64,000 bases of DNA from Mesohalobacter halotolerans. GTDB lineage: Bacteria > Bacteroidota > Bacteroidia > Flavobacteriales > Flavobacteriaceae. This document shows, one piece after another, positions 17,207 through 27,893 of the stretch; the first letter of the stretch is position 1, and every line of letters starts with the position of its first letter. The notes under the pieces were generated by a model. The model was not told the DNA's origin, did not search any database, and saw only the letters and a list, made by a program, of their open reading frames with translations. The stretch is taken from assembly GCF_006120725.1 (NCBI RefSeq), contig NZ_SWMU01000003.1:1-64000 (forward strand), in the 5' to 3' direction. A program made the translations under genes and the position numbers.

Positions 17207-17656
17207 ATGAGTTTAGAAAAACAAGTGATGGACAAGATGAAAGTGGCTATGAAAGCAAAAGACAGCGTTGCATTATCCTCATTGCGTTCTATTAAAAGTG
17301 AAATTTTAAAAGCCAAAACCAGTGGGGATTTTAGTGGTGAAATGACTGAAGCTGAAGAGTTAAAACTCATTCAAAAACTGGTTAAGCAACGCAAGGACTC
17401 TGCTCAACTCTACAAAGAGCAAAACCGAGAAGATTTGGCTGAAGAAGAGCTCAATGAAGTTAAAATACTTGAAGATTTTTTACCAGAGCAAATGAGTGAA
17501 GAGGCCATTGCTAAAGAAGTCAAAAAAATTATAGAGCAAACTGGTGCTAGCAGTATGAAAGATATGGGAAAAGTGATGGGTATTGCCACTAAACAAATGG
17601 CTGGAAAAGCTGAAGGTGCCGTGATATCTAAAATTGTGAAACAGGAGTTGACTTAG
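17207..17656 (+). CDS. yqeY: GatB/YqeY domain protein
   Basis: A 149-residue protein matching the YqeY family along its whole length: KQVMDKMKVAMKAKDSVALS, LRSIKSEILKAKTSG, ELKLIQKLVKQRKDSAQLYK, ILEDFLPEQMSEEAI, SMKDMGKVMGIATKQMAGKA and EGAVISKIVKQEL. The C-terminal part is the tRNA-binding-like domain shared with GatB and amidotransferase subunits. The exact role of free-standing YqeY is unclear; it is often found by tRNA and translation genes, and here it precedes a tRNA locus. Confidence 0.93.
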   Translation: MSLEKQVMDKMKVAMKAKDSVALSSLRSIKSEILKAKTSGDFSGEMTEAEELKLIQKLVKQRKDSAQLYKEQNREDLAEEELNEVKILEDFLPEQMSEEAIAKEVKKIIEQTGASSMKDMGKVMGIATKQMAGKAEGAVISKIVKQELT

Positions 17657-17737
17657 ATTTAAGACCTTGTACTTAAAAAATAAAATCAGCTTATCTTCTT
17701 AAAAGGAATAATTCTTTTTAATTTTGCAAAACTTATC

Positions 17738-17784
17738 GGCCATGTAGCTCAACTGAATACCTGCCTGCCGGCAGGCAGGGAGCA
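17738..17784 (+). pseudogene. 5' fragment of tRNA-Arg(UCG), split by a palindrome (unit 1)
   Basis: GGCCATGTAGCTCAACTGAA TA (17738-17759) is the acceptor and D-arm start of the intact tRNA at 18328, with one change (C5 to A). The 20-bp palindrome 17760-17779 interrupts the D-loop/D-stem junction. GAGCA (17780-17784) then completes the D-stem, and sequence unrelated to the tRNA follows. The same fragment, without the C5 change, is at 18033-18079. Neither can form a tRNA. Confidence 0.85.
17760..17779. repeat. Palindrome CCTGCCTGCC/GGCAGGCAGG (unit 1)
   Basis: A perfect 20-base GC-rich palindrome inserted in the tRNA D-arm sequence. When translated, as at the end of the first GIY-YIG gene, it yields LPAGRQG, a peptide scar that I recall as recurrent in Bacteroidota and other genomes carrying this type of palindrome. 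Confidence 0.85.
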
Positions 17785-17794
17785 ACAATTTGAT

Positions 17795-18088
17795 ATGAAA
17801 TATTATGTTTATGTTTTGAGAAGTGAAGTAGACGGTAGATTATATAAAGGATATACCAAAGATTTAAATAATAGAATTGAACAACATAACGCTGGAAAAA
17901 CTAAATCTACAAAAGGATTCAAAACTTGGAAGTTAGTGTATTTTGAAGTGTTTTCAGAAGAAAAAGAAGCAATAGATAGAGAAAAATATTTTAAATCTGG
18001 TATAGGTAGGGAATATTTAAAAAACAAAATTAGGCCCTGTAGCTCAACTGAATACCTGCCTGCCGGCAGGCAGGGAGCAACAATTTGA
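17795..18088 (+). CDS. GIY-YIG nuclease family protein, copy 1 (readthrough into tRNA fragment)
   Basis: A 97-residue single-domain GIY-YIG protein of the UvrC N-terminal/YhbQ-like type. YYVYVLRS...RLYKGYTKDLNNRI holds the GIY-YIG strand signature (YVYVL...YKGYT) with the catalytic Tyr and Arg. A helix with ...KGFKTWKLVYFEVFSEEKEA and catalytic-type Glu follows, then KYFKSGIGREYLKNKI. Family members act as metal-dependent endonucleases. The last residues (RPCSSTEYLPAGRQGATI) are translated from the next unit's tRNA 5' fragment and palindrome, so the natural end is uncertain. It is embedded in the 295-bp tandem unit. Confidence 0.85.
   Translation: MKYYVYVLRSEVDGRLYKGYTKDLNNRIEQHNAGKTKSTKGFKTWKLVYFEVFSEEKEAIDREKYFKSGIGREYLKNKIRPCSSTEYLPAGRQGATI
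18055..18074. repeat. Palindrome CCTGCCTGCC/GGCAGGCAGG (unit 2)
   Basis: Identical to 17760-17779, exactly 295 bp downstream, again placed between the D-loop (CTGAATA) and the D-stem (GAGC) of a tRNA-Arg fragment. It also encodes the LPAGRQG part at the end of the first GIY-YIG protein. Confidence 0.85.
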
Positions 18089-18089
18089 T

Positions 18090-18350
18090 ATGAAATATTA
18101 TGTTTATGTTTTGAGAAGTGAAGTAGACGGTAGATTATATAAAGGATATACCAAAGATTTAAATAATAGAATTGAACAACATAACGCTGGAAAAACTAAA
18201 TCTACAAAAGGATTCAAAACTTGGAAGTTAGTGTATTTTGAAGTGTTTTCAGAAGAAAAAGAAGCAATAGATAGAGAAAAATATTTTAAATCTGGTATAG
18301 GTAGGGAATATTTAAAAAACAAAATTAGGCCCTGTAGCTCAACTGAATAG
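18090..18350 (+). CDS. GIY-YIG nuclease family protein, copy 2 (3' end inside tRNA-Arg)
   Basis: An 86-residue protein identical to copy 1 over its first 86 residues. It stops at TAG 18348-18350, inside the D-loop of the intact tRNA-Arg (RPCSSTE is encoded by the tRNA 5' end). Gene and tRNA thus overlap by 23 bases on the same strand. The small size, the identical copies and the position inside a tRNA locus resemble a minimal homing-type endonuclease cassette. No intron core or intein residue is visible, so its mobility is inferred and not shown. Confidence 0.85.
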   Translation: MKYYVYVLRSEVDGRLYKGYTKDLNNRIEQHNAGKTKSTKGFKTWKLVYFEVFSEEKEAIDREKYFKSGIGREYLKNKIRPCSSTE

Positions 18351-18404
18351 AGCACTGGATTTCGGCTCCAACGGTTGGGGGTTTGAATCCCTCCAGGGTC
18401 ACCA
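18328..18404 (+). tRNA. tRNA-Arg (anticodon UCG)
   Basis: A full cloverleaf with encoded CCA. Acceptor GGCCCTG/CAGGGTC (one GU), D-stem GCTC/GAGC, anticodon stem CTGGA/TCCAA with loop TTTCGGC (anticodon TCG at 34-36), variable CGGTT, T-stem GGGGG/CCCTC, discriminator A. Oddities: the D-loop has G18-A19 instead of GG, and the T-loop is TTTGAAT, that is U56 instead of C56, so the tertiary pair 19-56 changed from G-C to A-U. Pair 27-43 is C/A. It reads CGA/CGG codons. Confidence 0.93.
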
Positions 18405-18409
18405 AAGCG

Positions 18410-18444
18410 GAGAACTTGTCAAAATCGACAAGTTCTCCCTTTTT
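18410..18444 (+). terminator. Rho-independent terminator of the tRNA
   Basis: GAGAACTTGTC (18410-18420) and GACAAGTTCTC (18427-18437) form a perfect 11-bp stem with loop AAAATC, followed by CCTTTTT. It begins 5 bases after the CCA end. Confidence 0.9.
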
Positions 18445-19865: not shown

Positions 19866-22800
19866 TTATTCCTTTATCAATTCTTGGGTTTGGCTATAGC
19901 CGTCTTGGTCTGTGAGTTTTACTAAATACACGCCGGCCTCTAAAGCATTTACGCCTATATGTAAACTTGTATAACTTATGGCCTGGGTTTGGCTAATGAC
20001 CAATTGCCCTAACATATTATATACCTCTACGGTGGCTTGGCTGCCCAGCGGTAAACTTGTTTGTATATTCACGATATCTTTAGCTGGGTTTGGATAGAGA
20101 CTAAAGAAGCTGTTTTCTTGTTCATCGATACCCATGGTTTCGTTATCAAACTTCAACGCAAAGCGCAAATTGTTTACCGATTCACTTATGTTGGCATCTA
20201 CACTAAAGCTGTAAGCTGTGCCATTACTAATTAAAGTTTCTGTCCCTAAGTAGTGATCTACTAAGTACACATCGGTAGCTTCTAAGTTATTTAAATTGGC
20301 GCTAAAGCTATAATTCTCATTACGCCAGTTGTTGGTAAACAAAGAAATCTCTTCATCAGTCTCTGGCAAGCTTCTTTTTTGAATAGTAAATAAACTGTTG
20401 CCATTAACTGAAGCCAGATTTTCATCCATATTTCCTAGTTTAGATATGTCTAATTGATCTATGTCATTATTACCATCAGGAGAAAAACGTAAACGAATGG
20501 CATCGATGACTTCTTGGTCTTCATCATGAAGATTGAATAACAACTGTGGTTGTTGACTTAAGCTTTCAGGTGATTGGCTTAAACTACTTACAGCTTTTTC
20601 ACTTTCAGTAAATGTTAGTTCTGAATCTGAACCATTCAACTCTATAAAGAAAGCTTGCCCGGGTTCAATAAACTTTGTAGCTGTACTTGATGGTGTTGTT
20701 GTGCCATTGCCTGATAATTCATCGATTAAAACAAAGGCGCCTCGATTGTTTACCATTGGATCCCAAACCCAAAGTTTAGTGTTATCTGTGTTGGTATTTG
20801 CAGCAAGAACCTCACTTACATCTATCTTACTTTGGTAAGGATTAGCTATAAAAGCATAAGTTGTACTTCCAGCAGTTGCGCTAGGGAAGGTGATGTTTGT
20901 ATTTCCTACTTCTAAATCGCCAGTTGAGATTAAGGTCGTAGTAGTGGGAGTAGCATCATTATCAGTTAAATCAACAGTTCGGTCACCACGGACCATTAAT
21001 CGGTAAGGCTTTCCTACTTCTAAATCGGTATTTTTGGTGTTGGTAATCGCTTCCCAACCATTGGTTGCACTAAAACTAAATAAAGAATGAGCTCCAGATT
21101 GGGTATAATCAATTCCAGTAGTAGCATTATAATTACCTACTGTTCCTTGCTCTCCCGTAATATGCGTCCCTATTCCTGTGTCATTTACACCGCCATTCTG
21201 CCAGTTAGCAAAGATGCTTTCACCATCTACCGGGCTTGCTACCATTCTAAAGGCACGTTTGGCGGGGTAGTATTTTTCAGAAATTACGGTACCTGATGTT
21301 TTGGTATAAGTGCCTCCTATTTCCCCAAGATATGAATCGCCATTGGAAGCATCAGATTTGAATACTAAGTCTCCATCGTGCGTAAAATTACCGTCGGAGG
21401 CTATGTATTTTCCTGCTTTAATGGTCGCAACACCCTCTAAAGTAAGATTCCCCGTGTTGGTTACGTCAATATTGTCATTAATATTCAATTCATTTCCATA
21501 TAATTCGACCCCTGCATCACCTGAAATTTCAGTATTGATGGTGATGTCTTTATCGTTTCCAGATTTTCCAATAGTTAATCCTGTGCTTGTGGCGGTTAAG
21601 TTGGTAATCGGGTAGCTTACATCTGCTGTAAAAGCAGTTCCTCCAGGAATGTATTTAAACGCTCCAGCTGCGGTTAGTGTTCTAGAGGTACTTAAACCAC
21701 CTAAAGCGTTATCTGTGTAAAGCGAAATATCGCCATTGTTTGTTGTGGTTAAATTGGCTTCTAAATTTATCGTGCCACCATAAGTGGTAATTGGACCGTT
21801 TATGCTTACATCATTATTAAATGTAACTTGACTTGTGTTGGAGGGTTTACCGATATTAAGCCCTTCTATCGTATTGGCTACATTTAAATTGGGAATAGGA
21901 AAGCTAAAAGCCTCGCCAAAACTATTACTTGATGGTTCTATTGTTAAAGTTCCTGAAGTGTTAATTGAACTTGCAGAACCATTAGTATCAACAACTAAAT
22001 GATCACTCCGTAAAAGTACATCAGCACTTCCTGCATCAATTTCAACATTATTATTAAATGTAATTTTACTTATGCTTGTTAAGTAGTTCCCTGCTTCGAA
22101 AACAACATCTCCATTTGTAGTTTCAAGTTTATGGTCTGATTCTAGTTCAATAGATTCTTTGGCTCTAAATAATAATGAATTTCCTGTTGAGTTCGTTATA
22201 TCTGAATTTACTATAATTGTTTTGGCATTAATACTTAACTCTCCATTTATTAAATGATTCTCAAGTACTGAAGCATTTACATTTACTGGGTCAGATGAAT
22301 CAGAGATTGTACTTATGGCTCGACTACTGATATCAAATCTCCAAGTGCTATTTTCAGTATCTCCGCCTGATGGTACAATTGTTAAATCCCTCAAAGCTAA
22401 ACGATAAATAGCATAAGATTGATTAGTTACTAAGCCCTCGTTTGAAAGGTCTGAAGTCTCATCGAAACCAAATATGGTATTGTTAGATCCGCCAACTAAG
22501 GTGCTTAGTCCTGTACTATCTAGTTCTGTGCCACTAAAAAATTTTGCCTGACCACCTGAACCAAAACTAATAACGGGCGATCCACTTACAATAATATCAC
22601 CACCACCCATCGAACCAACTGAGGCCGAGCGACCTGCATTTAAGATGATAGCATCAGTAGAAGCAGATGTGGTAGTAATATTTTCCGACACTACAAGGTC
22701 TCCATTTTCAGTTTCTATTAAAATTATTCCGTTGGAATATAGGCCATCTGTAGTGTTGTAGCCGATCCCAGTTGAAGTAGCGTTTCGTATAATTATATCA

Positions 22801-25800
22801 CCAAGCGGATTACTTTCATCACCGCCTGAAATAGTTCCAAAATCATTAGCATTATTTTGTAAGTTAAAATCTCCTGAGCCGTTCATGACGAAGTGATTAG
22901 TAGTGATAGCAGCACTCTGCCCTACTGTGCCACTAGAAGTTATAGTAAGCTTTCCAGAGGTATTTGCTAAATTGTCGTTAATATTAATGTCTTTACCAAA
23001 AATTGAAATAGGCCCATTAATAGTGGTTGGTTCTACAACTTCTATATCTTCTACATTTGAAAGTTTACCTATCGTTAAAGCTGTTACACTAGAAGACAAA
23101 GAAACATTTGATATAGGATAGGTAAATTGGTTATCAAAACTATTACTATGAGGCTCTATGTTCACTTCACCTGTAGTTACGATGGCTGATGTGCCATTAG
23201 TATTAAATCGATCTGACCTAAGCATTACATTAACATCTGAAGCTGTAATTAAAGTATTATCCAATTGACCAAAATTCAAGTCATATAAATAAATACCTGT
23301 AGAATAGCCATCTACAGTAATTTTACCATCGACAGCCAAGATATCAAAATCTCTCAAATAAACACCATAACCAGCACTTGGTGTTTGGCCATCAATCAGC
23401 ACATCACCGCCGCCTGTAGCCTCAATGATTTTCGAGCCAGTGGAATTGGATATCACACCATAGGAGTGCGCTTCACCAATGATTTCAATCGCTGTTCCAG
23501 AGGCTTTGTCTGACACCAAAGAAAAGCCATCAGTGGTACCATTATTGGCTAGCAAAACCGCATCTCCATCGTGCGTAGTTCGGGTTTTTCCATGCAAGGT
23601 GATTTTGCCTTGCCCCGAGTTAATGAGCAGGTCGTTGTTTTGCTGTATGCCATAAGTATTGCTTGTGGAATAGGTTCGCCCTCTAATCGTCACATCCCCA
23701 CCACCTGAATACATTTGTGCGCCATCACCCAGATTAACTCCACGCCAGGTTCGGTCATAGGCAAAGCCATCAGGAATACCGTCATTGGCAGTACCTCCAT
23801 TTGCTCCATCATCCAAACCTCCTGCCAGTATAATATTTCCACCACCGGCAGCTTGATCAATTGAGCCTCCTGCACTGTTGAACAGGATGGAGTTTTGAGT
23901 ATAAATCCGACCATCTCCATTGGCATCCCTATCCGCCCAAAATACCAAATCAGCATCGTTGGTTTGAAAGGTGTAGCCATCGCGTGTTTGAATTCCCCTG
24001 GCGGTGGTAACCACAATATTTCCACCACTAGTCGCTTCAAAAAGTCCGCTGGTGGTAGCTCCAAAATAGATTCCAACATTATGTGGGGTGTTATTACCAT
24101 TGATGGTGATGGCATCGCCATCAGCTTTGTCGGAGATGACTGAGACTGAGTTTGATGTACCATCTGCGAACTCAATACCGTAGCCAGAAGCACCATTAGT
24201 ACGAAGGATTTTGCCATCAAACTCGATAATACCCTCACCAGAATAGATAGTGAGATCACCAATGAATTCAATCCCTCGGATTGAGCTTCTATTGTATTCG
24301 TTTGTACTGCCTTTGAAGGTGATATCCCCACCACCAGAATAAACCTCCAAGCCACTCCTAACATAAATACCCTGATCACGGGTGTCATTGCGGGCGTAGC
24401 CCGATGGACGGTTATTTCCATCATCTGTCCCCCCTGCAAAAATGATATTCCCACCACCTGTGGCTTGGTCTGTTTGTCCTCCAATCGAATTAAAAATGTT
24501 GTTGTCATCTATGTATAAGCGACCACGGTTGGCGCCTGTATTGTTGGGCCACATCACAATATCTCCACCGTTGGTCTGGAAGGTGTAGTCATCTGTGGTC
24601 TGAATGCCCTTGGCGGTGGTGACCATTATATTTCCACCGCTTGTAGCTTCAAAGAGTCCGCTGGTGGTAGCTCCAAAATAGATTCCAACATTATGTGGGG
24701 TGTTATTACCATTGATGGTGATGGCATCGCCATCAGCTTTGTCGGAGGTGACTGAGACTGAGTTTGATGTACCATCTGCGAACTCAATACCATAGCCTGA
24801 AGCACCATTAGTACGAAGGACTTTGCCATCAAACTCGATAATACCCTCACCAGAATAGATAGTGAGATCACCAATGAATTCAATCCCTCGGATTGAGCTT
24901 CTATTGTATTCGTTTGTACTTCCTTTGAAGGTGATATCCCCACCACCAGAATAAACTTCCAAACCACTCCTAATGTAAATGCCTTGATCTTTATTATCAT
25001 TTCTAGCGTAACCTGATGGACGGTTATTTCCATCATCTGTCCCCCCTGCAAAAATGATATCCCCACCACCTGTGGTCTGATCGGTCTGTCCGCCAATGGA
25101 ATTAAAAATGTTGTTGTCACCTATGTATAAGCGACCACGGTTGGCGCCTGTATTGTTAGGCCACATCACAATATCTCCACCGTTGGTCTGGAAGGTGTAG
25201 TCATCAGTAGTCTTAACGTCTCGCTTTGCGGTAACGACAATGTCACCACCACCTGTAGCAAGCAGTTGCATGGTTGCTCCTGCAGTGCCTCTCAGATAAG
25301 TACCCAAACTAGCACGACCATCTGAACTTTTTAAAGTGATGGCATTGCCCGTCGATTTGGCAGATACCAAAGATAAATTACTGACCGTGCCACTACCTAA
25401 TTGGAGTGGCCAATTCCCGTAGCTTTCTCGGTTCTTGGCCTCCATTAAAATAGAGCCAGTACCCGAATTAACAGTTAAATCTCCAGTTTGGAAAATCCCA
25501 TGACGATTGGTATTTGTGTCGTAAGTTTCTCCTCTTAATATCACATCGCCACCGCCGGAGTGGAGTTTAACGCCAGTATCAAGCTGTATACCATAGGTGC
25601 TGGTCGTTTTGGCAAATCCATCAGGAAAGTCATCATTGTTAGTATCTGCACCACCAGCTAAAATGATGTTGCCACCACCAGAAAGATCGGAAGCAATGCT
25701 TCCATTTGCAGTGTTAAGCGTGACATCACTACTTAATTTAATGTAACCCGTGGCATTGTTTGATGCAGTCGGATTAGTCCACAAGACGATATCAGCATTA

Positions 25801-27893
25801 TCAGTTTGTAGCTGATTATTCTGACCGAGTGAGATTTCATCTACACTCTTAAAAGTAATTTGACCATTTCCTTTGGTTTCAAATTGATAATCATCGGTCG
25901 TTTGTATTTCATGATCTGCCGTCAAAAGAATATCCCCACCACCAGTGGCTAATAATTGCATAGTCGATCCCGAGGTACTACCCAGGTCGATACCGTAGCG
26001 ACCACCTGTACTTTTTATGGTAATAGCATTGTCTGATGGTTTAGCAGATACCAATGATAAATTACTGACTGTGCCACTACCTAATTGTAGTGGCCAACTC
26101 CCGTAGCTTTCTCGGTTCTTGGCCTCCATTAAAATAGAGCCAGTACCCGAATTAACAGTTAAATCTCCAGTTTGGAAAATCCCATGACGATTGTTACTTG
26201 TGTCGTAAGTTTCTCCTCTTAATATCACATCGCCACCGCCGGAGTGGAGTTTAACGCCAGTATCAAGCTGTATCCCATAGGTGCTGGTCGTTTTGGCAAA
26301 TCCGTCAGGTAAACCATCATTGTCAGTGTCTTGACCTCCTGCTAGAATGATATCCCCACCACCAGAAAGATCGGAAGTGGTGCTGCCATTGGCAGTGTTG
26401 AGTGTAACACCACTACTTAGCTTAATGTGTCCAGAAATGTTGGATGCGGCTGGATTGGTCCAAAACACTATGTTACCATTATTGGTCTGGAAGGTATAAT
26501 CATCACTAATTTGAATTTGATATTTCGTAGTGACCAAAATATCCCCACCACCAGTGGCTAATAATTGCATAGTCGATCCCGAGGTACTACCCAGGTCGAT
26601 ACCGTAGCGACCACCTGTACTTTTTATGGTAATAGCATTGTCTGATGGTTTAGCAGATACCAATGATAAATTACTGACTGTGCCACTACCTAATTGTAGT
26701 GGCCAACTCCCGTAGCTTTCTCGGTTCTTGGCCTCCATTAAAATAGAGCCAGTACCCGAATTAACAGTTAAATCTCCAGTTTGGAAAATCCCATGACGAT
26801 TGTTACTTGTGTCGTAAGTTTCTCCTCTTAATATCACATCGCCACCGCCGGAGTGGAGTTTAACGCCAGTATCAAGCTGTATCCCATAGGTGCTGGTCGT
26901 TTTGGCAAATCCGTCAGGTAAACCATCATTGTCAGTGTCTTGACCTCCTGCTAGAATGATATCCCCACCACCAGAAAGATCGGAAGTGGTGCTGCCATTG
27001 GCAGTGTTGAGTGTAACACCACTACTTAGCTTAATGTGTCCAGAAATGTTGGATGCGGCTGGATTGGTCCAAAATATGATATTACCATTATTGGTAACTA
27101 GACTTCTATCTGCTTCAATGTCTATATTATTGTTGACTTTAATTAAAATATCTCCATTATCTGCAGTAGATGTTAAACCACCACCTGCTTGTACATTCAT
27201 ATTATCTCCAATAAAAGATATAGGACCATTTATGATCCAATCATTTGAGATCGTAAAGCCAGTAGTATTTCCTTCTTTACCAAAATTTAATCCCGTCAGC
27301 TGACTTATATTATTAATACGAAGACCACTTGCATCAGCCGATCCTGAGAATGTATCATTGGTTATAGTTCCATCAATATCCATCTGATTTCCATAATCAG
27401 AAAAAGCCGTTCCATAGGGTTGCAACGTAAAGGCACCAGTACTTTCTATGATCATATATTGATCTGTACTGCTAAGATTATTTGTAGTTAAGGTTATATT
27501 GCCTGAGCCACTGTTCAGCATTCGGTTTGCACCCAGTGCTCTTATACTACTTTGCCCTTCTAATATGATATGACCATTGCCACCACTCGTGTTGATATTG
27601 GCAGACAAGTTAATTGATTCGTTAGCCTTAATTAATATTTGATTACTCGAAGTACTAACAATAGCCTCATCCAAATTAATTGTACTCGCTTCAACTATAA
27701 AATCTCCATCTACTAAGGCAGACTCTATAACCGACGCTTGAATACTCGCAGTCCCTGTAGTGGATAATGTATTATTGGTGATACTCCAATTGGTTCCTGA
27801 TGTTCCTGTTTCGCCCTCATCACTAATTGTTAAAGTTTGTCCAATAACAAACGAAGAGCATAATAAAAATACGTAGATAAAATTAATTTTCAA
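19866..27893 (-). CDS. Giant T9SS-secreted beta-helix adhesin (2675 aa)
   Basis: Signal peptide 1-18 (INFIYVFLLCSSFVIGQ). Residues about 20-2200 are filamentous-haemagglutinin-like beta-helix repeats with recurrent GGGDI(I/V/L) steps, for example SGGGDVILRGETYDT and QTGDLTVNSGTGSILMEAKN. Several units of about 203-204 residues repeat nearly exactly in protein and DNA. A region shared with the neighbouring giant protein follows (EKYYPAKRAFRMVASPVDGE to about 2600). The last 80 residues are a T9SS type A sorting domain: FFSLYPNPAKDIVNIQTSLP, VEVYNMLGQLV, ALEAGVYLVKLTDQDGYSQT. Expected to be exported by T9SS and anchored at the surface; adhesion or gliding is inferred from the architecture. Confidence 0.88.
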   Translation of the reverse strand: MKINFIYVFLLCSSFVIGQTLTISDEGETGTSGTNWSITNNTLSTTGTASIQASVIESALVDGDFIVEASTINLDEAIVSTSSNQILIKANESINLSANINTSGGNGHIILEGQSSIRALGANRMLNSGSGNITLTTNNLSSTDQYMIIESTGAFTLQPYGTAFSDYGNQMDIDGTITNDTFSGSADASGLRINNISQLTGLNFGKEGNTTGFTISNDWIINGPISFIGDNMNVQAGGGLTSTADNGDILIKVNNNIDIEADRSLVTNNGNIIFWTNPAASNISGHIKLSSGVTLNTANGSTTSDLSGGGDIILAGGQDTDNDGLPDGFAKTTSTYGIQLDTGVKLHSGGGDVILRGETYDTSNNRHGIFQTGDLTVNSGTGSILMEAKNRESYGSWPLQLGSGTVSNLSLVSAKPSDNAITIKSTGGRYGIDLGSTSGSTMQLLATGGGDILVTTKYQIQISDDYTFQTNNGNIVFWTNPAASNISGHIKLSSGVTLNTANGSTTSDLSGGGDIILAGGQDTDNDGLPDGFAKTTSTYGIQLDTGVKLHSGGGDVILRGETYDTSNNRHGIFQTGDLTVNSGTGSILMEAKNRESYGSWPLQLGSGTVSNLSLVSAKPSDNAITIKSTGGRYGIDLGSTSGSTMQLLATGGGDILLTADHEIQTTDDYQFETKGNGQITFKSVDEISLGQNNQLQTDNADIVLWTNPTASNNATGYIKLSSDVTLNTANGSIASDLSGGGNIILAGGADTNNDDFPDGFAKTTSTYGIQLDTGVKLHSGGGDVILRGETYDTNTNRHGIFQTGDLTVNSGTGSILMEAKNRESYGNWPLQLGSGTVSNLSLVSAKSTGNAITLKSSDGRASLGTYLRGTAGATMQLLATGGGDIVVTAKRDVKTTDDYTFQTNGGDIVMWPNNTGANRGRLYIGDNNIFNSIGGQTDQTTGGGDIIFAGGTDDGNNRPSGYARNDNKDQGIYIRSGLEVYSGGGDITFKGSTNEYNRSSIRGIEFIGDLTIYSGEGIIEFDGKVLRTNGASGYGIEFADGTSNSVSVTSDKADGDAITINGNNTPHNVGIYFGATTSGLFEATSGGNIMVTTAKGIQTTDDYTFQTNGGDIVMWPNNTGANRGRLYIDDNNIFNSIGGQTDQATGGGNIIFAGGTDDGNNRPSGYARNDTRDQGIYVRSGLEVYSGGGDITFKGSTNEYNRSSIRGIEFIGDLTIYSGEGIIEFDGKILRTNGASGYGIEFADGTSNSVSVISDKADGDAITINGNNTPHNVGIYFGATTSGLFEATSGGNIVVTTARGIQTRDGYTFQTNDADLVFWADRDANGDGRIYTQNSILFNSAGGSIDQAAGGGNIILAGGLDDGANGGTANDGIPDGFAYDRTWRGVNLGDGAQMYSGGGDVTIRGRTYSTSNTYGIQQNNDLLINSGQGKITLHGKTRTTHDGDAVLLANNGTTDGFSLVSDKASGTAIEIIGEAHSYGVISNSTGSKIIEATGGGDVLIDGQTPSAGYGVYLRDFDILAVDGKITVDGYSTGIYLYDLNFGQLDNTLITASDVNVMLRSDRFNTNGTSAIVTTGEVNIEPHSNSFDNQFTYPISNVSLSSSVTALTIGKLSNVEDIEVVEPTTINGPISIFGKDININDNLANTSGKLTITSSGTVGQSAAITTNHFVMNGSGDFNLQNNANDFGTISGGDESNPLGDIIIRNATSTGIGYNTTDGLYSNGIILIETENGDLVVSENITTTSASTDAIILNAGRSASVGSMGGGDIIVSGSPVISFGSGGQAKFFSGTELDSTGLSTLVGGSNNTIFGFDETSDLSNEGLVTNQSYAIYRLALRDLTIVPSGGDTENSTWRFDISSRAISTISDSSDPVNVNASVLENHLINGELSINAKTIIVNSDITNSTGNSLLFRAKESIELESDHKLETTNGDVVFEAGNYLTSISKITFNNNVEIDAGSADVLLRSDHLVVDTNGSASSINTSGTLTIEPSSNSFGEAFSFPIPNLNVANTIEGLNIGKPSNTSQVTFNNDVSINGPITTYGGTINLEANLTTTNNGDISLYTDNALGGLSTSRTLTAAGAFKYIPGGTAFTADVSYPITNLTATSTGLTIGKSGNDKDITINTEISGDAGVELYGNELNINDNIDVTNTGNLTLEGVATIKAGKYIASDGNFTHDGDLVFKSDASNGDSYLGEIGGTYTKTSGTVISEKYYPAKRAFRMVASPVDGESIFANWQNGGVNDTGIGTHITGEQGTVGNYNATTGIDYTQSGAHSLFSFSATNGWEAITNTKNTDLEVGKPYRLMVRGDRTVDLTDNDATPTTTTLISTGDLEVGNTNITFPSATAGSTTYAFIANPYQSKIDVSEVLAANTNTDNTKLWVWDPMVNNRGAFVLIDELSGNGTTTPSSTATKFIEPGQAFFIELNGSDSELTFTESEKAVSSLSQSPESLSQQPQLLFNLHDEDQEVIDAIRLRFSPDGNNDIDQLDISKLGNMDENLASVNGNSLFTIQKRSLPETDEEISLFTNNWRNENYSFSANLNNLEATDVYLVDHYLGTETLISNGTAYSFSVDANISESVNNLRFALKFDNETMGIDEQENSFFSLYPNPAKDIVNIQTSLPLGSQATVEVYNMLGQLVISQTQAISYTSLHIGVNALEAGVYLVKLTDQDGYSQTQELIKE
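24004..25227 (-). repeat. 612-bp in-frame repeat inside the adhesin gene
   Basis: The plus-strand word GTCCGCTGGTGGTAGCTCC recurs with a 612-bp offset (about 24044 and 24656), and the surrounding sequence runs parallel with about 95% identity by eye through the GGACGGTTATTTCCATCATC and GACCACGGTTGGCGCCTGT landmarks. 612 is 204 codons, so the copies stay in frame. Confidence 0.8.
25931..27072 (-). repeat. 609-bp in-frame near-identical repeat inside the adhesin gene
   Basis: TATCCCCACCACCAGTGGCT begins at 25931 and 26540, and TGGATTGGTCC ends the parallel at 26451 and 27060, an offset of 609 bp (203 codons). Over more than 500 bp I see no differences. A third, more diverged version of the same unit spans about 25250-25800. 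Confidence 0.85.

Follow-up and report, generated by a model that had tools for sequence, protein, structure and literature searches.

The window analysed here is the stretch of 64,000 nucleotides at positions 1-64,000 of the forward strand of NZ_SWMU01000003.1 (contig C5), from the 2.65 Mb genome of Mesohalobacter halotolerans (Flavobacteriaceae; GCF_006120725.1). The only tRNA gene called in it by ARAGORN is an intact tRNA-Arg(TCG) at 18328-18404 (+), followed by a terminator-like inverted repeat at 18404-18443 (+; inverted-repeat pair I2). The upstream neighbour, which served as synteny anchor, is yqeY (17207-17656, +), encoding a YqeY-like protein (PF09424, 8.6e-44). A putative promoter-like motif, TAATTTTGC, lies at 17719-17727 (+). 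It is taken to be the promoter motif of the original tRNA gene, and stretches resembling it occur upstream of the tRNA in several relatives.

The intact tRNA gene is preceded by two tandem units of 295 nt each, 17738-18032 and 18033-18327, which are 100% identical. Each unit consists, in this order, of tRNA nt 1-22, the 20-bp perfect palindrome CCTGCCTGCCGGCAGGCAGG, tRNA nt 23-27, ten bases and a GIY-YIG gene. In the first unit, the displaced tRNA-Arg fragment nt 1-22 (17738-17759, +; repeat family D2) carries a C-to-A change at nt 5 (GGCCA for GGCCC), palindrome 1 (17760-17779, +) lies exactly between tRNA nt 22 and 23, and displaced nt 23-27 (GAGCA; 17780-17784, +) were identified by comparison with 18350-18354. 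GIY-YIG gene copy 1 (17795-18088, +; 97 aa) has no stop codon in its own tRNA fragment; it reads through the next tRNA fragment and palindrome (tail ...SSTEYLPAGRQGATI) to a stop at 18086-18088, just 5' of the ATG of the second gene. The second unit holds tRNA-Arg nt 1-22 at 18033-18054 (+), the identical palindrome 2 at 18055-18074 (+), a second copy of nt 23-27 (GAGCA) at 18075-18079 (+) and GIY-YIG gene copy 2 (18090-18350, +; 86 aa), whose product ends in IRPCSSTE and whose stop codon, 18348-18350, is tRNA nt 21-23. A search for CCTGCCTGCCGGCAGGCAGG with up to 3 mismatches returned only the two palindromes in the window and nothing in 100 shuffles. The duplicated tRNA piece may come with the cassette or be a copy of the target; in the window and at locus L059, both tRNA copies fit the local tRNA type.

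A preliminary description of this DNA had reported exact 295-bp tandem units, a palindrome splitting the tRNA 5' fragment, a second gene that stops within the tRNA and an intact tRNA that begins with the third repeat of its own 5' end. All four were borne out, the third copy of the first 22 nt beginning at 18328. The layout given for the unit was also correct, except that 10 bases and not 9 separate tRNA nt 27 from the ATG. The description had further placed a minimal GIY-YIG cassette after the D-arm of the tRNA. The cassette does occupy the tRNA gene and has the intact tRNA on its 3' side, but what sits at the edge of the D-arm (nt 22/23) is the palindrome and not the gene. The junction of the gene lies near the anticodon, since the broken copy reaches approximately nt 35 in several better preserved relatives. 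The base change in the outermost fragment had been read as a sign of relaxed constraint; the change is present, and the displaced tRNA fragment of genome G007 also has one change, but the sign is a weak one.

Both window genes match the Pfam GIY-YIG family (second gene, 6.7e-18), and with 65 bits against PF01541, for which the cut-off is 22.6, the window protein belongs to the GIY-YIG superfamily. Residues Y17, G19, R27 and E63, which we take to be catalytic core residues, are among the columns invariant in 12 relatives. The nearest solved structures by sequence are those of UPF0213 (1zg2, 3.3e-10; 1ywl, 7.1e-9), likewise small GIY-YIG proteins, followed by the structure-specific nuclease SLX1. 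We know of no tRNA linkage or mobility for UPF0213. Outside its GIY-YIG core the protein lacks a DNA-binding domain, which counts against a homing endonuclease; I-TevI reportedly has such a domain. On its strand the 295-bp unit has no sizeable frame other than the GIY-YIG gene, which leaves no integrase, and in Pfam this gene matches only GIY-YIG and no HUH tyrosine transposase. Splicing of the group I intron or intein kind is unneeded, because an intact tRNA gene adjoins the insert.

Among 14 gene pairs tried, 11 gave a dN/dS ratio, ten of them between 0.09 and 0.21 and one of 0.49; saturation is close for several dS values, and changes are few in some of the pairs. The ratios indicate that the nuclease genes are under purifying selection in most pairs tested. 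The TCG and ACG cassettes compared have dS values of 1.4 and 2.1, near saturation. These cassettes are thus old, and the comparison caught no cassette that had lately moved from one tRNA type to another, which likewise counts against homing. Nor is there support (dS 1.4) for a recent transfer of the window cassette from the one at tRNA-Arg(ACG) in the same genome.

The yqeY anchor yielded the locus from 25 of the 27 genus genomes, and tRNA-Arg(TCG) lies beside yqeY at 19 of these 25. The preliminary description had proposed a comparison of relatives for empty sites, and filled and empty sites were both found: 16 of the 19 loci are empty, without a GIY-YIG hit in the fetched stretch, one is a relic (G019, a close relative, without the gene) and two are filled (the window and G007). 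G007 carries a different cassette of like plan, with tRNA nt 1-22, a hairpin, tRNA nt 23 onward, the gene and the intact tRNA. Together with G006 it forms a filled and empty pair with similar flanks, part of the upstream flank being compared by eye, and an identical intact tRNA. Occupied and empty alleles of one site are thus present, as is characteristic of a homing endonuclease. The empty tRNA-Arg(TCG) genes of the genus show two types of D-arm, GCGC/GCGC (as in tRNA-Arg ACG) and GTTC/GAAT, in a comparison of L020, L024, L035 and L039 with L021, L025 and L040. The two types are possibly scars of gene conversion by earlier cassettes.

The genome that bears the window has 13 GIY-YIG matches, two of them within long frames (454 and 600 aa). 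Eight of the 13 adjoin tRNA genes, two each at Arg(tcg) and Arg(acg) and one each at Arg(tct), Ala, Asn and Cys. Reading of these loci revealed broken copies of the tRNA, with interrupting hairpins, in a form that varied with the locus. The Arg(acg) locus has two tandem cassettes, the Arg(tct) locus has inserts on both sides, three 83-nt palindrome-bearing tRNA copies precede tRNA-Asn, and the tRNA-Cys copy has its T-loop replaced by CCCCGAAGCGTCGGGG. No tRNA fragment was seen on reading the Ala locus.

The genus was surveyed by a PF01541 scan of 26 of the 27 genomes, and 70 regions were picked by hand among the matches listed; regions with UvrC- or DnaQ-like long frames were left out, as were two frames, one of 238 and one of 249 aa (G025). 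Overlapping loci L002, L005 and L043 were excluded from the reading of genus loci with tRNA calls. The family and phylum samples consist of the loci that best match the window protein or its alignment, and the GTDB sample of the best 80 such loci, so that linkage rates in these three samples are not rates for all GIY-YIG genes. For the linkage count, L010 and L011 were skipped and 11 duplicate loci were dropped (2 genus, 1 family, 0 phylum, 8 GTDB plus viral). Among the matches listed, the four sets together contain 138 unique GIY-YIG loci that are no more than 600 bp away from a tRNA gene. The genus set, which is the least preselected, gave 38 linked loci out of 106 among the matches listed; the best-match samples gave 25/28 (family), 17/26 (phylum) and 58/76 (GTDB plus viral). 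The gene is on the strand of the tRNA in 137 of the 138 linked loci and on the other in one. The gap is at most 60 bp in 116 of them, with a median of 32 bp. Linkage by chance would be expected at about 2%, assuming 45 tRNAs in 2.9 Mb, and is rejected on this expectation and because two clades of the same domain, which serve as internal control, are unlinked. The linked tRNAs of Bacteroidota comprise more than a dozen types, and the linked GTDB loci include members of Patescibacteria groups, Ignavibacteriota and Neomarinimicrobiota. The viral scan gave four loci, one of them beside tRNA-Arg. A phage or plasmid vehicle was rejected, since tblastn against 50,697 phage records yielded two hits, both weak and partial, and against 72,556 plasmids yielded none. 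At a threshold of 1e-8, 228 of the 397 family genomes are without a hit, which also speaks against homing.

Common strand, short distance and purifying selection would equally be expected if the nuclease had a function for the host, either regulating or processing the neighbouring tRNA or its transcript, with a place near tRNAs for co-transcription, or acting in defence. The patchy presence of the gene, with 16 empty sites in one genus, the separate clades for different tRNAs, the frequent arrays and the broken copies make such a function very unlikely.

Clades were compared with tRNA type on a quick tree of 135 genus proteins (94 columns, many open forks), in which tandem copies form separate rows and the labels of L064 and L105 were assigned by hand. 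The tRNA-type labels require 13 changes for 12 types over 60 rows, and 100 shuffles all required at least 38. Labels for linked and not linked require 9 changes over the 135 rows, against at least 37 in the shuffles. One clade of 59 rows and one of nine have no same-strand tRNA. Two clades contain both Arg(acg) and Arg(tcg), and one contains both Phe and Cys. The clades of the linked genes thus largely follow tRNA type, and each lineage is dedicated to one target in the manner of a homing endonuclease, with Arg(acg) and Arg(tcg) sharing clades.

The broken tRNA copies show two geometries. In one, the gene lies upstream of the intact tRNA and is accompanied by a broken 5' copy; in the other it lies downstream with a broken 3' copy. 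Restoration of the tRNA 5' end, proposed for the window in the preliminary description, therefore holds for the first geometry, but many cassettes are of the second, with a broken 3' copy left behind. The broken copy of the upstream type at tRNA-Arg most often consists of nt 1-22, a palindrome and nt 23 to approximately 35. In the downstream type the palindrome is at nt 32/33 at L151 and L153 and elsewhere in others. A lenient cut-off still left 24 of the 146 linked rows without a broken tRNA copy, which is a point against homing. The search for GIY-YIG 3' ends overlapping tRNA 5' ends, suggested in the same description, gave 54 of 85 upstream-type loci in which the frame ends inside the called tRNA, including L064, where the tRNA call is false. 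Bases of the tRNA thus serve as the stop codon of the nuclease, often TAG at one of two places, nt 8-10 (26 loci) or nt 21-23 (21 loci). At L064 (1738-1808), ARAGORN called a tRNA-Phe(aaa) around a palindrome-interrupted copy of tRNA-Arg, the locus adjoining Arg(tct). Broken tRNA copies can therefore mislead tRNA annotation.

Inserts were surveyed where they lie between two BLAST-detectable tRNA pieces, each distinct insert being counted once. A perfect stem of at least 6 is present in 42 of 66 distinct inserts, and 38 of the 66 were matched by at most 5% of their own letter shuffles; the 24 inserts without a stem of 6 are another point against homing. At Arg junctions, 16 of 34 inserts lie at nt 21/22, 22/23 or 21/23. 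In Ser copies the palindrome is inserted at nt 36/37 without loss. In copies of Phe, Cys, Met, Asn, Asp and Arg(tct) it replaces 5 to approximately 15 nt in the region of the anticodon or T-loop. Covariation was examined in two sets of six chosen inserts, each set of one length (16 nt, T-loop; 20 nt, D-loop), other lengths being left out. The T-loop palindromes keep all pairs and include two compensatory pairs; their covariation score was reached by 1 of 500 shuffles and their count of compensatory pairs by 90 of 500. A compensatory change was looked for in the six D-loop palindromes and none was found.

The 16-nt core of CCTGCCTGCCGGCAGGCAGG is a dispersed repeat in 80 of the 397 family genomes, with up to 23 copies per genome; the reversed pattern, used as control, has no copies in the family genomes. 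The core is present in 60 of 169 genomes with a GIY-YIG hit and in 20 of 228 without one, and four or more copies occur in 18/169 and 4/228, respectively, both comparisons being uncorrected for kinship. Fourteen dispersed copies (13 in L171-L180, one in L014) have no GIY-YIG gene in the fetched stretch. One of the fourteen, at L173 (1490-1674), lies in a tRNA-Asn fragment (nt 1-9, palindrome, nt 10 onward) that precedes an intact tRNA-Asn and is perhaps a decayed cassette.

These data bear on the proposal that the GIY-YIG protein processes or moves palindromes, favouring tRNA loops and carrying its gene along. REP palindromes are likewise short, dispersed and tied to a nuclease gene, that of the RAYTs, which are HUH tyrosine enzymes; here the nuclease is GIY-YIG and palindromes stand in tRNA copies. 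Such a palindrome-repeat system would account for the many palindromes inserted in the D-, anticodon- or T-loop of several tRNAs with no tRNA base lost or repeated, for core copies dispersed apart from the gene, for the joint occurrence of core and gene and for the paired changes in the T-loop set. We nevertheless regard it as unlikely. The association is inflated because cassettes themselves carry palindromes, some genomes are rich in palindromes without a GIY-YIG hit, the palindrome replaces bases in other tRNAs, and the D-loop set lacks compensatory change.

The genus, family and phylum listings contain many same-strand GIY-YIG genes approximately 300-450 bp apart. Ten further arrays of 2-6 units, picked by tandem spacing, all lie beside tRNAs, and nine of them are from single-contig genomes. 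At L105 (1380-4400; G003), eight diverged GIY-YIG units lie 3' of the 3' half of a tRNA-Met, and ARAGORN called no tRNA in the fetched stretch. Tandem arrays, which the preliminary description had put down to amplification in the window, thus recur in other genomes. The eight diverged units of L105 and the arrays in single-contig genomes rule out an assembly artefact as a general explanation. Passive duplication by slippage between tRNA repeats, with the nuclease inactive in the process, would fit the exact identity of the window units, which recent duplication predicts, and the 22-nt repeats available there. It leaves unexplained why particular nuclease clades occupy units beside so many tRNAs, and is considered most improbable. 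Non-coding tandem arrays of about 2 to 7 units of approximately 83-127 bp occur upstream of the intact tRNA at L104, L012, L064 and L132. Their units are palindrome-interrupted tRNA copies with an upstream spacer and resemble tRNA-derived satellites.

The tandem units of the window are probably two copies of a mobile endonuclease cassette of the homing type that has specialised on genes for tRNA-Arg. This reading rests on the filled and empty sites, the clades by tRNA type, the common strand and short distance, the palindromes, the arrays and the purifying selection. Cleavage of the tRNA gene, movement of the cassette and the role of the palindrome are what we infer from sequence. The nuclease would cut either the tRNA gene itself or a structure that the gene forms, and recombination or gap repair would copy the cassette into the break. 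Insertion would split off a broken 5' tRNA copy on the promoter side, the intact tRNA staying on the 3' side. Further breaks, or unequal exchange between tRNA repeats, may then multiply the unit, and in the displaced copy the palindrome may act as a plug where the cut was made. Because the cut site must persist in the intact tRNA, the resident tRNA is presumably cut rarely or repaired after cutting. Since the intact tRNA seems to keep the target, self-protection is a puzzle, and the missing donor immunity of the classical kind argues against homing.

There is an open chance that the link with palindromes could make the system more than a homing-type mobile endonuclease. A new class of two-part mobile system in bacterial chromosomes, in which minimal tRNA-matched GIY-YIG nucleases act on hairpins and spread together with palindromes, is rather unlikely. 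Each nuclease clade would be matched to one or a few tRNAs, tRNA loops would be cut and palindromes inserted there without target duplication, and gene and palindrome would spread from tRNA to tRNA, the palindromes also scattering over the genome.

tRNA genes are essential and are common landing sites, mostly for large integrase elements; integrative elements insert in a tRNA gene and restore it. The cassettes differ from these in having no integrase, a unit of approximately 300-450 bp and breaks in the D-, anticodon- or T-arm; the end restored is often the 5' one. No tRNA-linked GIY-YIG cassette of bacterial chromosomes was found described by title in the open-licence PMC literature. The nearest precedents found appear to be the mobile ORFs of fungal mitochondria and SegB. 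In Allomyces atp6 and Glomus atp6, atp9, cox2 and nad3, mobile ORFs are accompanied by duplicated host-gene ends; the Glomus atp9 ORF is GIY-YIG and the others are LAGLIDADG (PMC3630166, accessible part). The endonuclease gene brings a replacement terminal part that displaces the native one, and in Allomyces the replacement is reported as foreign (PMC3630166). This layout corresponds to that of the downstream-type tRNA cassettes, but the fungal hosts are organelle protein genes, and the accessible part of the paper describes neither tRNA specificity nor a palindrome in the displaced piece. SegB is a free-standing GIY-YIG homing endonuclease of T-even phages that amplifies a tRNA together with its own gene in tandem, by recombination that the authors locate between the tRNA 5' and segB 3' regions (PMC13096335, accessible part). 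Like the cassettes, it is a GIY-YIG gene often near tRNA genes; unlike them, it belongs to phages and tRNA isotypes are not favoured, broken tRNA copies and palindromes being undescribed in the part of the paper available (PMC13096335).

A gene of approximately 85 codons thus appears to be specialised on tRNA genes. The cassettes may cause the ends of tRNA genes to be duplicated, to decay and to be exchanged, and part of the tRNA fragments and short palindromes of these genomes may stem from them. As a compact system on the chromosome, they lend themselves to the questions of how a nuclease with a single domain locates one tRNA gene and spares its host, and of why palindromes lie in loops.

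At L063 (900-1450; G001), a GIY-YIG gene of a different clade (C-terminus RLKSYFTG; a branch of nine rows) lies inside a gene that appears to be of the four-helix-bundle type, between the inverted repeats ACCTGTGAAATA and TATTTCACAGGT. Downstream of the tRNA-Arg(TCG) locus, the window contains a strongly repetitive frame of 2675 aa (19866-27893, -) with a C-terminal tail that resembles a sorting domain.
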